Source: an uncultured Pseudomonadota bacterium
GTDB taxonomy: Bacteria; Pseudomonadota; Gammaproteobacteria; Methylococcales; Methylomonadaceae
DNA length: 37,143 nt
Assembly (NCBI GenBank): GCA_903876445.1
Contig: CAIQZX010000174.1
Coordinates: forward strand, 1 to 37,143
Direction: 5' to 3'
The position numbers and the translations under genes were made by a program. Every line of letters begins with the position of its first letter. Within the stretch, counting starts at the first letter, position 1. This document shows positions 33,338 through 37,143 of this stretch, piece by piece. The notes below the pieces were generated by a model, which made no database searches, had not been told where the DNA came from, and worked only from the letters and a program-made list of their open reading frames with translations.

Positions 33338-34324
33338 TTACGCTTCTAAAACAGCTAAACGATCAGCGAGTAATGTTTCTAAAACAACCAGAGCTTTCGC
33401 AAAACCATCGATGCCTTCGGCTAATTTGTCAGTTGCCATACGATCTTTAGCGTGCATCGCATCAAATGTCGCTTTATCAACATTTATTTTTTCAGCGGCT
33501 GAGGCTTTCGCTGCTTCAACATTCAATTTGCGTGGTAATTCACCTTGTGTGTTTTGCAATTCATCCAATAAAGACGGTGCAATCGTCAACAAATCACTAC
33601 CAGCCAATTCCGTGATTTCGCCAACATTGCGGAAACTTGCGCCCATAACTTCAGTGTTATAACCGAATTTTTTGTAATAGTTGTAAATTTCAGTAACAGA
33701 TAAAACACCTGGATCTTCTGCTGGTGCGTAAGAATCTTTGCCTGTGTCTTTTTTGTACCAATCTAAAATACGACCCACAAATGGCGAAATCAATGTGATA
33801 CCGTTTTCAGCACACGCAATCGCTTGATGTAAACCGAAAATCAATGTTAAATTGCAGTGAATGCCTTCTTTTTCCAAAACGGCAGCCGCTTGAATACCTT
33901 CCCATGTTGCTGCAACTTTGATTAAAACACGTTTGCGATCAATACCAGCCGCTTCATATTGAGCAATCAAATCACGACCTTTAGCGATAGTTGCTTCGGT
34001 ATCGAAAGATAAGCGTGCATCCACTTCTGTCGAAACACGGCCTGGAATAATTTTTAAAATTTGCAAACCGAAAGAAACAGCTAAACGGTCAAATGCTAAT
34101 GTCACAACTTGCGCCGCGTCAGCCGCTGCACCTAATGTTTCACGCGCCCCTTTTAAAGTATCGTCAACAATACTTTGGTATTGTGGCATTTGCGCTGCTG
34201 CTGTAATTAAGGACGGATTCGTTGTTGCATCGCGTGGTGTGAATTTTTCAATTGCTTGAATATCGCCTGTATCCGCAACGACTACTGTGTATTGTTTTAA
34301 TTGTTCGAGTAAAGATTGGCTCAT
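33338..34324 (-). CDS. tal: Transaldolase
   Basis: This enzyme interconverts sedoheptulose 7-phosphate and glyceraldehyde 3-phosphate with erythrose 4-phosphate and fructose 6-phosphate. In methanotrophs it works in the regeneration arm of the RuMP cycle. The Schiff-base lysine lies in [29 protein letters not shown] near the N-terminus and FVGRILDWY are diagnostic of the TalB class. At 328 residues it is slightly longer than E. coli TalB. An ACAGG ribosome site precedes the ATG. It is the last gene of a likely unit with the two repeat-protein genes, 33 bases after the second and with no hairpin between. Confidence 0.96.
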
Positions 34325-34357: not shown

Positions 34358-34972
34358 TTAGCGTTGTGCTTTTAAATACTTTTCAACACCTGTTAGGATT
34401 ACATCATCTGCAATTGTTTCTTCAGCTGTAGCGACTTCGATTTCCGTTTGTGTTGCAACAGTTATGGCTTGTTGTTTTGCCAAATACTTACTGACACTAC
34501 TTGTTGTCGTTTCAGGAAGATTTTGCAAATACAATTCAACGCGAGTTTGTTTTGGTTTAGGCGGTGCATTACGTTCAGCAATCGCTTTTTGTAGCATGTA
34601 TTTTGCTACTTTGCTTGCAGGTACCTTATCTTGGTTTGCCAAATACTTCTCTACGCCAGTTCTGACAATTGGTGCGCTGTCTTTATTATTATTCAAATAC
34701 TTTGCGACACCACTCAAAACGACAACAGATTTATTTTTTTCAGCAATGGCTTGACGTGCTAAATACTTTGCAACACCACTCGGTTGGTTTTGCTCTTGTT
34801 CTTTTAGATATTTCGCCACACCGCTCAATGTTGTCGATGGTTTTTCGTCTAAATAACGACTCACACCAGTGCGAGCATCAGATTGAGCCGATTCGCTAGT
34901 AACTACATGAGTTGCCGTCGTGCCGTAAGCATCTTCCGAATACCTACCAAAAAGACTTGCAAAAAAGCCCAT
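34358..34972 (-). CDS. Predicted cytoplasmic protein with nine [TS]GVxKYL repeats
   Basis: I do not recognise a family. This 204-residue protein is built mostly from a short motif [TS]GVxKYL, found nine times (starting at residues 35, 50, 65, 87, 105, 120, 143, 158 and 194). Copies at 120, 143 and 158 are degenerate (SKVAKYM, TRVELYL, SSVSKYL). Spacing is often exactly 15 residues; two longer intervals contain an extra helix-like AIAEKN/AIAERN segment. There is no signal peptide or membrane helix, so it is probably cytoplasmic. It starts two bases after the neighbouring membrane protein, which carries the same motif. The end of that gene supplies a G-rich ribosome site. The design suggests a multivalent binding or scaffold protein; partners are unknown. 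Confidence 0.85.
   Translation of the reverse strand: MGFFASLFGRYSEDAYGTTATHVVTSESAQSDARTGVSRYLDEKPSTTLSGVAKYLKEQEQNQPSGVAKYLARQAIAEKNKSVVVLSGVAKYLNNNKDSAPIVRTGVEKYLANQDKVPASKVAKYMLQKAIAERNAPPKPKQTRVELYLQNLPETTTSSVSKYLAKQQAITVATQTEIEVATAEETIADDVILTGVEKYLKAQR
34373..34870 (-). repeat. Array of [TS]GVxKYL coding repeats
   Basis: This is the stretch coding for residues 35-200 of the repeat protein. The DNA copies have diverged at synonymous and spacer positions while the G-V-x-K-Y-L pattern is kept, which points to selection on the protein rather than recent DNA duplication. Confidence 0.85.
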
Positions 34973-34974
34973 AA

Positions 34975-35625
34975 CTACCCCCGGTTCGCGTCGTTTTGAG
35001 CAGCTTTTTGGGCAATGTTTTGTTTAGCAATATAACGCGCTACATTGGTTGGTTTGCCATTACGTTCTAAGTATTTAGTTACGCCAGAAACTTTAGGAAT
35101 ACGAGCGTTTAGATAACGAGTAACACCTGTTTCACGGTTTGCATGAACCGTTTCGTTTCCAACATGACTGCCATTAAATTTTGGACATCTTGATGCCGCA
35201 AAACCTGCGACAGCTAATGCACCCAACAAAAGAAATAGACTATTATCGCTTTCTTTTTCTGCTTTTTTCTCAGCCGCTTGTTCCATAATTACCGAACCTG
35301 CACTGGTTGTGTATTCAGGTGCAGAAGTTGGTACGATTGAAGGAGCAGATTTACTCGCTTTATAAGCATCGTCTTTGAATAAGACTTTTGGTTCAAAGTT
35401 TGCCGCTGGATATTTTGAATCATCGACAGAAACGACTGGCGCAATCACAGCAGCCGGTGCTGGTTTAACAACAGGAGCTGTAGCAGGTGCTGATTTTACT
35501 GACGCATCTTGATAAAGCACTTTTGGTTCAAAATCAGCCGCTGGGTATTGACCCGCAAATGCTACAAGTGGGCTTGCCACTAACAACGCAACAATTGCAC
35601 CTTGGAGTAAATTATTTTTTTTCAC
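34975..35625 (-). CDS. Predicted inner-membrane protein with periplasmic FEPKVL and cytoplasmic GVxKYL repeats
   Basis: This protein of unknown family has 216 residues. In order it has a signal peptide (1-24, ending VAFA); two copies of YPAA(D/N)FEPKVL(Y/F)xD at residues 27-40 and 72-85, separated by Ala/Pro/Val-rich linker; a second linker; one membrane helix (about 129-145, SLFLLLGALAVAGFAAS) followed by Arg-Cys; and a basic tail with three [TS]xVxxY[LI] motifs, at 166, 180 and 193. The predicted topology puts the FEPKVL repeats in the periplasm and the KYL motifs in the cytoplasm. The start is GTG with AGGTG upstream. It is followed after two bases by the nine-repeat protein, so the two probably act together, one as membrane anchor. 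Confidence 0.85.
   Translation of the reverse strand: MKKNNLLQGAIVALLVASPLVAFAGQYPAADFEPKVLYQDASVKSAPATAPVVKPAPAAVIAPVVSVDDSKYPAANFEPKVLFKDDAYKASKSAPSIVPTSAPEYTTSAGSVIMEQAAEKKAEKESDNSLFLLLGALAVAGFAASRCPKFNGSHVGNETVHANRETGVTRYLNARIPKVSGVTKYLERNGKPTNVARYIAKQNIAQKAAQNDANRG
35029..35130 (-). repeat. Three [TS]xVxxY[LI] coding repeats in the membrane protein tail
   Basis: These code for TGVTRYL, SGVTKYL and TNVARYI at 14- and 13-residue spacing, the same motif as in the downstream gene. Confidence 0.8.
35371..35547 (-). repeat. Two YPAA(D/N)FEPKVL repeats with linker
   Basis: The two units are coded by 35506-35547 and 35371-35412, 45 residues apart start to start. Eleven of the fourteen residues are identical between the copies. 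Confidence 0.85.
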
Positions 35626-35706: not shown

Positions 35707-37143
35707 TTAAAGCACCGCTTTAACGTGTTTAACCACGTTTTCTGGCGTGAAGCCGAAGTGTTCAAATAACACACCGCCTGGTGCAGATTCACCGAATGTA
35801 TCGATACCGACTACACCGCCTTCTAAACCAACATATTTGCGCCAGAAATCTGTTACGCCCGCTTCAATAGCTACACGTTTAACGCCTGGAATCAAAATGC
35901 TGTCTTTATAGGCTTGATCTTGACGATCAAAAACATTTGTTGATGGCATAGAAACCACGCGAGCATTGATACCTTCTGCAGCTAAAGCGGCTTGAGATTT
36001 CATTGCTAATGTTACTTCTGAACCTGTCGCAATCAAAATAACAGCAACATCACCTGCTGCTTCAGAAACAACATAAGCCCCTTTACGCATTGCTGCAATT
36101 TGTGCGTCATCGTGTGCAATCGCTGGAATTGCTTGACGACTTAATACTAAGCTCGTTGGTCCATTTTTGCGTTCAACAGCTGCAACCCAAGAAACCGCAG
36201 TTTCAGTTGAATCAGCAGGTCGCCATACATCCATATTTGGAATGTAACGTAACGCAGATGTATTTTCGATTGGTTGATGGGTTGGACCATCTTCGCCTTG
36301 ACCGATTGAATCGTGTGTTAGTACCGCAATCGTTTGAATTTTCATCAAAGCAGCCATACGCAACGCACTTTTCGCATAGTCAGAGAACATGTGGAATGTG
36401 CCACCGAATGGTAATAAACCACCATGCAATGCCATGCCATTCATGATGGCGTACATACCAAATTCACGCACACCGTAAGAAATGTAGTTGCCTGTTGATT
36501 TACCACTAACGTGTTTGAAACTTGCACAGCTTGTCAGATTTGAACCCGTCAAATCGGCAGAACCACCTAAAAATTCAGGCAATGTTTCTGCTAATCCTGC
36601 AATCGCTTTTTGCGATGCTTGACGTGACGCTAAGTTTTCGCCTTTTTCGTTAGTTGCTTTGATAAATGCGTCAGTCACTGATTTCCAGTTTGCTGGTAAT
36701 TCACCTGCCATGCGGCGTTTGAATTCTGCTGCTTCTGCTGGGAATGCTGCGGCATAAGCTGCAAATTTTTCATCCCAAGATTTTTCAGCTGTTGCACCTT
36801 TAACTTTTGCATCCCAACCTGCATAAACGTTTTCAGGGATAACAAATGGTTCGTGCGTCCAACCTAATTCTTTACGAGTTAATGCAACTTCTTCCAAACC
36901 TAATGCAGCACCATGGCAATCGTGACTGCCGCTTTTATTTGGTGAGCCAAAACCAATAATAGTTTTGCAGCAAATCATTGACGGTTTATCAGTAACGGCT
37001 TTCGCTGCTACAATCGCTGCATTGATTTCATCAGCGTTGTGACCATCAACAGATTGAACGTGCCAGCCATAGGCTTCAAAGCGTTTTACTGTGTCATCTG
37101 TGTACCAGCCATCAATGTGACCGTCGATAGAAATGTTGTTGTC
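35707..37143 (-). CDS. tkt: Transketolase, 5' end outside the window
   Basis: This thiamine-diphosphate enzyme transfers two-carbon ketol units between sugar phosphates and is needed for RuMP-cycle regeneration. The open frame continues to the right-hand edge, with [16 protein letters not shown] and [11 protein letters not shown] before the internal Met at 36978, so that Met is not the start. About 478 codons are visible of a usual length near 665. The visible part holds the end of the thiamine-diphosphate domain, the pyrimidine-binding domain ([43 protein letters not shown]) and the C-terminal domain ([27 protein letters not shown]). No frameshift is seen. Confidence 0.97.

Follow-up and report, generated by a model that had tools for sequence, protein, structure and literature searches.

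A putative membrane-tethered linker for formaldehyde-fixing enzymes, encoded in the RuMP operon of methane- and methanol-using bacteria

The stretch of DNA analysed here (the window, 37,143 nucleotides of contig CAIQZX010000174.1 from an uncultured member of the Methylomonadaceae) carries on its minus strand, in this order, genes for a transketolase, a 216-aa membrane protein, a 204-aa repeat protein and a transaldolase, raising the question of what the two middle proteins, neither of which matched anything above cut-off in Pfam or NCBIfam, are doing between these enzymes. A sequence-only reading of this region had suggested a membrane-anchored scaffold, and it was correct in the coordinates and strand of both open reading frames (34358-34972 and 34975-35625, minus strand), in the two-base gap that separates the membrane-protein gene from the repeat gene downstream of it, and in siting the pair between transketolase and transaldolase. 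Out of its sight were hps and phi, the genes for 3-hexulose-6-phosphate synthase (HPS) and 6-phospho-3-hexuloisomerase (PHI), which tblastn placed with the start of the transketolase on another contig of the window genome (C133, locus L192). We propose, with moderate confidence, that the products of the two genes act as a multivalent linker, tethered to the membrane, which gathers RuMP enzymes into clusters, HPS and/or PHI being the likeliest clients; more broadly, this motif-rich pair, one member of which is membrane-anchored, probably holds formaldehyde-fixing enzymes together in methane- and methanol-users. The genes of the locus are:

35707..37143, minus strand: transketolase, cut by the contig end (tblastn)
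34975..35625, minus strand: membrane anchor protein P0002, 216 aa, GTG start (open reading frame)
34358..34972, minus strand: repeat (putative linker) protein P0001, 204 aa, nine motif copies (open reading frame and motif count)
33338..34324, minus strand: transaldolase (tblastn; family assigned on the orthologue in locus L032)

The sequence-only reading had counted nine [TS]GVxKYL copies for the repeat protein and another three for the membrane protein's tail, figures that stand for the relaxed pattern [TS]xVxxY[LMI] but not for the literal one, which occurs five times and once, respectively, or six times and twice if K or R is allowed. In 20,000 residue shuffles, the relaxed pattern appeared on average 0.019 times in the repeat protein and 0.010 times in the tail, with maxima of 2 and 1. 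Successive copies are spaced by 15, 15, 22, 18, 15, 23, 15 and 36 residues in the repeat protein and by 14 and 13 in the tail. The motif count placed the copies of the repeat protein as follows:

34850..34870, minus strand: motif 1, TGVSRYL, residues 35-41
34805..34825, minus strand: motif 2, SGVAKYL, residues 50-56 (strict pattern)
34760..34780, minus strand: motif 3, SGVAKYL, residues 65-71 (strict pattern)
34694..34714, minus strand: motif 4, SGVAKYL, residues 87-93 (strict pattern)
34640..34660, minus strand: motif 5, TGVEKYL, residues 105-111 (strict pattern)
34595..34615, minus strand: motif 6, SKVAKYM, residues 120-126
34526..34546, minus strand: motif 7, TRVELYL, residues 143-149
34481..34501, minus strand: motif 8, SSVSKYL, residues 158-164
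34373..34393, minus strand: motif 9, TGVEKYL, residues 194-200, near the C-terminus (strict pattern)

Across 86 repeat proteins, the number of copies ranges from 4 to 22 (median 11). The consensus of 1064 instances, drawn from 88 proteins that include L038 and L040 (which are not operon repeat proteins and are omitted from the set of 86), reads [ST]-G-V-[AES]-[KR]-Y-[LMV]-x-[KR]-Q; the search pattern itself fixes V and Y and restricts positions 1 and 7, and at the free positions G is found in 68%, K or R in 98% and Q in 67% of instances. Among 18 genomes of the window's genus, the motif codons of the repeat protein are more conserved than the linkers between them (dN/dS 0.048 vs 0.181, rough values, as synonymous sites are near saturation), and shuffles and dN/dS together rule out a chance repeat. 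AlphaFold predicts the repeat protein as nine isolated helices, one per motif, without an overall fold (pLDDT 60.8, pTM 0.18), and thus as a chain of many short-motif copies lacking a fixed fold, as is typical of multivalent linkers. When the repeat protein was modelled as read through into the transaldolase, the prediction was poor overall, with pLDDT below 50 over 296 of 544 residues; judged without coordinates, the motif region was mostly at pLDDT 30-50, lower than alone, with no sign of docking. Although the window's own copy has no strongly hydrophobic N-terminus by hydropathy, the description of the repeat protein as soluble is doubtful for the family, since the most hydrophobic 11-residue stretch lies within the N-terminal 32 residues in 63 of 86 repeat proteins, and N-terminal hydropathy exceeds 1.5 in 70 of them.

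Hydropathy of the membrane protein fits a signal peptide and one membrane segment, and its features, all on the minus strand, are:

35551..35625, minus strand: N-terminal hydrophobic segment, residues 1-25, probable signal peptide (hydropathy; cleavage presumed)
35506..35547, minus strand: putative periplasmic repeat 1, YPAADFEPKVLYQD (from sequence; side of the membrane presumed)
35371..35412, minus strand: putative periplasmic repeat 2, YPAANFEPKVLFKD (from sequence; side of the membrane presumed)
35185..35241, minus strand: transmembrane segment, residues about 129-147 (19-residue hydropathy 1.76)
35110..35130, minus strand: tail motif 1, TGVTRYL (motif count)
35068..35088, minus strand: tail motif 2, SGVTKYL (motif count, strict pattern)
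35029..35049, minus strand: tail motif 3, TNVARYI (motif count)

The 19-residue hydropathy windows starting at residues 5-11 all exceed 1.6, the N-terminal hydrophobic segment is kept across the anchor alignment A1, and the membrane segment exceeds 1.6 in 91 of 94 anchors. The probable signal peptide is followed by a second repeat, YPAA[DN]FEPKVL[YF]xD, present twice, which differs from the tail motif and, given the signal peptide and single internal segment, would lie on the opposite side of the membrane from it. Four tail motifs are present in 86 of 94 anchors; the fourth, C-terminal copy is missing in the window anchor and the listed anchors of its genus. In 17 anchors of that genus, the similarly rough dN/dS was 0.023 for the tail motif and 0.049 for both periplasmic repeats together, against 0.263 for the membrane segment, 0.201 for the signal peptide and 0.320 for the rest of the protein. 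At one contig end (L066 8023-9775, G028:C54), a secreted repeat protein of 94 aa that lacks the motif tail is encoded directly before a repeat gene of 16 motifs, an arrangement that looks like an anchor cut in half. Anchor-like proteins with signal peptide, periplasmic repeats and membrane segment were also seen in families f6 and f2 (L168 7031-7654, L169 7223-7867 and L170 1004-1648), without the cytoplasmic TGVxKYL motif and without an hps match nearby.

A search of 101 genomes, the window genome and 100 relatives, matched the repeat protein in 70 (E up to 0.01) and the anchor in 75 (E up to 0.001), some weak anchor matches covering the periplasmic half only. In a scan of named genomes, 79 of the best 80 of 256 matching stretches carried titles of Methylococcales, Methylococcaceae or their member genera (Methylobacter, Methylovulum, Crenothrix, Methylotuvimicrobium, Methyloglobulus and Methylomonas among them), and one was titled only Gammaproteobacteria. 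PHROGs yielded no match, no PDB chain matched the profile of either family at E up to 0.1 (a search that short peptides could escape), and plasmids held no match for the one repeat protein searched. Neither the motif nor a RuMP scaffold was described in any title or abstract found by full-text search of open-licence PMC articles, and the accessible parts of PMC517821, PMC5802761, PMC6548844, PMC7298851, PMC8527097 and PMC13108547 mention neither. The sequence-only reading was to be given up if the genes lay apart in relatives with the motif unconserved, or if the motif proved to be a known domain; instead, the pair is found together, the motif is under purifying selection and no domain was matched.

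The neighbours of the pair are the genes for HPS, PHI, transketolase (tkt), transaldolase (tal) and class II fructose-bisphosphate aldolase (fba), in the order hps-phi-tkt-anchor-repeat-tal-fba (assigned by NCBIfam models in L032 and by clustering in other loci), and the operon is present in Methylotuvimicrobium buryatense 5G (L139). Judged by labelled genes in the best 80 of 256 named loci, the anchor is preceded by tkt in 73 and by the contig end in 7, and followed by the repeat gene in 71, by tal in 8 and by the contig end in 1. Among the 79 genomes in which the anchor or its tail was matched, hps lies no more than 3.2 kb away on the same strand in 58 (59 counting a below-cut-off HPS match in G063), 52 of them with hps upstream at the distance expected of hps-phi-tkt and 6 with hps directly downstream; in the remaining 21, hps is far off on the same contig in 5 and missing from that contig in 16, 5 of which have none at all. 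One of the five with distant hps, G063, has two below-cut-off partial hps matches close to its anchors. In L162 of the same genome, the hps, phi, tkt and anchor copies are broken into several frames, possibly by sequencing errors in the assembly. Within the order, seven HPS-positive genomes had no anchor match and five anchor-positive genomes had no HPS match.

A second arrangement, tkt-fba-anchor-hps-phi, characterises family f4 (L039 and L041), the full order in L041 being tkt-fba-anchor-hps-phi-tal-tkt-fba-anchor-hps-phi; in L163 and L164 of this family only anchor, hps and phi lie together, with tal absent from the stretch or on the opposite strand. Methylococcus capsulatus Bath has RuMP clusters MCA3040-45 and MCA3046-50 (PMC517821, PMC8527097, PMC13108547), whose six and five genes, as far as the accessible parts of these papers show, fit tkt-fba-anchor-hps-phi-tal and tkt-fba-anchor-hps-phi of L041, and appear to be the same operon. 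Those parts name five enzymes and leave the anchor gene unmentioned; the anchor would thus correspond to MCA3042 and MCA3048, and f4, because its gene order fits these clusters, would be the Methylococcaceae. In a CRISPRi screen, guides against the M. capsulatus RuMP operons reportedly rank among those with negative fitness scores (PMC13108547), an effect that can extend over a whole operon, and the accessible part of that study does not single out the anchor gene.

In a sample of 369 genomes of the class, the motif profile matched six (E up to 1e-4), three of them in family f10, which lies outside the order, and HPS (TIGR03128) was found in the same six genomes and no others; the Fisher p of 3e-13 for this co-occurrence is overstated, since the six genomes represent two lineages only. 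Family f10 is probably the Methylophagaceae, and motif profile A4 matched 53 of its 57 genomes, some of them only through a ChpA-like protein. A third arrangement, hps-repeat-tal, was found in all 14 f10 genomes with a locus examined (12 of them best-scoring matches), with a small repeat protein of 97-204 aa between hps and tal and no anchor in the operon, suggesting that clustering is the core function and anchoring a Methylococcales addition. The system is not restricted to pMMO-bearing organisms, as the pMMO/AMO family was found in none of the 17 f10 genomes tested, while the control, G027, was positive. G027 and G053 also stood out in that the reversed control pattern matched 27 and 31 times, compared with 0-3 times in the other eight genomes, an excess that points to a repeated element. 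In families f7 and f8 of the order, AMO-family matches occurred in 11 of 13 genomes, and neither HPS nor the scaffold was matched in any of the 13. Some RuMP bacteria are without the anchor/repeat system: the anchor profile matched none of ten further HPS-type genomes in a phylum sample (three above the curated cut-off; E up to 1; no positive control), and in one of them, G806 (L185), tal-hps-phi stands without an anchor-profile match and no motif protein was flagged among the surrounding listed ORFs.

Linkage to the RuMP operon thus extends over several lineages and gene orders, with hps and phi as neighbours in all three arrangements (f1, f4 and f10) and tal in most of their loci, and in duplicated units the repeat gene still accompanies hps-phi (L035, L037 and L044). 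The sequence-only reading had raised a C1 or sugar-phosphate enzyme as client, and this linkage lends it support; operon position alone can reflect co-regulation. We prefer HPS and PHI as clients because their genes recur as neighbours in each of the three arrangements and go along with the repeat gene when units are duplicated. HPS forms dimers and PHI tetramers, and the anatomy of motif helices on a flexible chain, together with the adjoining genes for oligomeric enzymes, leads us to read the pair as a multivalent linker.

We infer topology, binding, client identity, clustering and benefit, and the mechanism might run as follows. Each motif opens with a helix N-cap residue and displays V, Y and L along a single side of a short helix, and the 4 to 22 helices on their flexible linkers would all dock onto one type of surface on an oligomeric RuMP enzyme, cross-linking HPS and/or PHI into a cluster. 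The anchor tail, mostly with three or four motif copies, would pin this cluster to the membrane, while the periplasmic repeat would bind a partner in the periplasm. Formaldehyde entering at the membrane could then be captured and handed to the next enzymes before it spreads. A more ambitious version, which we put forward tentatively, is a transmembrane metabolon that would bridge, through the anchor, a partner producing or delivering formaldehyde on the outside, gripped by the periplasmic repeats, and a condensate rich in HPS and PHI on the inside, held by the tail together with the repeat protein.

The periplasmic repeat is also found beyond the anchor. Twenty loci with P0002 matches outside the main set were compared, of which L065 and L070 are anchors and L066 adjoins a repeat gene; a stand-alone secreted periplasmic-repeat protein comes after a three-gene ABC importer operon in 13 of these loci, the importer being NMT1-like by Pfam in L053 and assigned by clustering in the other 12. 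When a partner was sought near mxa, xox and pmo, methanol dehydrogenase was absent among the six neighbours run against Pfam (four from L053, two from L068). Small secreted proteins in L052-L064 (e.g. L053 7192-7437) are made of YPAANFQPKVIYxD repeats and often end in PKYPAAxFxPKVIYP, and 6 of the 20 loci compared include a moaA-like cluster member.

The tail motif, too, is used elsewhere. Outside the RuMP operon, six loci encode a further family of motif proteins, the third, which bears a conserved Cys/His stretch (CxAxT-G-xxC...CxxH) at the C-terminus, and in f10 motif arrays sit in the linkers of ChpA-like kinases (e.g. TSVERYIQQQ in L160):

L152 7145-8485, L153 7338-8171, L154 7045-7461: Cys-domain motif proteins
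L155 6872-7735, L156 6478-7374, L038 9442-10272: Cys-domain motif proteins
L189 5477-11176, L158 5745-11852, L160 1-2549: ChpA-like kinases with motif arrays (f10)

The L189 kinase has Hpt, HATPase, CheW and receiver domains and adjoins response-regulator and MCP genes, a neighbourhood that we take to be pilGHIJ-chpA; through such arrays, pilus chemosensing could be connected with formaldehyde metabolism. Both L155 and L156 also encode, close to the Cys-domain motif protein, a large protein that has a Zeta_toxin-type domain. One Cys-domain homologue matched 'Diatom pyrenoid component 2' in Pfam, but below the cut-off (E 0.0049, 17.7 bits vs 70), and this was dismissed as chance.

Together, the Cys-domain family and the f10 kinases imply that the receptor of the motif need not be a RuMP enzyme, and they are the main reason for keeping an alternative in which the motif is a docking tag for a non-RuMP hub, such as a hub at the pole or membrane, or part of a chemosensory system, that several unrelated proteins use to reach the same place. 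The scattered sites of the Cys-domain proteins and the position of the L189 kinase beside response-regulator and MCP genes speak for this alternative, but a general hub should not track formaldehyde fixation, and in the class sample the motif profile appeared only where HPS did (single-motif proteins would escape that profile); the small proteins richest in the motif, moreover, stay in RuMP operons across changes in gene order. We consider a hub unlikely. Decidedly unlikely, in our judgement, is a membrane coat in which the motif binds itself or lipid and shapes or stacks intracytoplasmic membranes, a role that the sequence-only reading had also floated. An anchor with a partner whose N-terminus is hydrophobic in most repeat proteins (above 1.5 in 70 of the 86) would suit a coat, as would motif helices that look amphipathic, yet f10 has the repeat protein without pMMO/AMO, and we know of no intracytoplasmic stacks in methylotrophs lacking these enzymes, such as f10; f7 and f8 have AMO-family matches without the scaffold, and the window's repeat protein has no strongly hydrophobic N-terminus. 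Membrane shaping as the main role is thus disfavoured by f10 and f7/f8. Improbable, finally, is a regulatory device in which the periplasmic repeat would sense a condition such as a metal or the status of methanol or formaldehyde, whereupon the tail and the repeat protein would sequester RuMP enzymes, let them go or hand them over to a protease. The two-sided anchor with both repeats under strong selection and the secreted repeats that follow importer operons would fit it, but Pfam and NCBIfam found no sensory or catalytic domain, and the f10 operon has the repeat protein without the anchor.

A multivalent linker of RuMP enzymes would have counterparts in carbon fixation. EPYC1 and PYCO1 are pyrenoid repeat linkers of Rubisco, whose several binding motifs cross-link the carbon-fixing enzyme into a condensate (PMC6265248, PMC10288592). 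By analogy with what the accessible parts of these papers describe, the repeat protein is likewise a chain with several motifs, its binding being presumed. The RuMP pair differs in serving a formaldehyde pathway and in being bacterial, operon-linked and provided with a dedicated membrane anchor bearing the same motif. In the carboxysome, the scaffold CsoS2 has repeat motifs on a disordered chain and is encoded beside its client enzyme, a likeness that the RuMP pair would share by analogy, with its gene beside that of the proposed client; in contrast to CsoS2, it has a membrane anchor instead of a shell, with no shell genes among the annotated neighbours and no sequence match. Profile searches of Pfam, NCBIfam and PDB gave no match that would point to descent from EPYC1, PYCO1 or CsoS2. 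To our knowledge, a membrane anchor that carries the linker's own motif has no counterpart, and proof of client binding would justify treating the RuMP linker as a separate class.

How RuMP bacteria keep toxic formaldehyde low during fast fixation has yet to be explained, and the same problem besets engineered methylotrophs. A native linker system encoded in the operon would be a ready-made part that can be tested in a cultivated strain, and Methylotuvimicrobium buryatense 5G has genetic tools. Should the transmembrane metabolon prove true, it would amount to a shell-less, pyrenoid-like formaldehyde compartment built on the membrane that hosts methane and methanol oxidation. If our preferred reading of the pair as a membrane-tethered RuMP linker is true, bacteria have evolved a linker that clusters enzymes in a pathway other than CO2 fixation and that brings its own membrane anchor.
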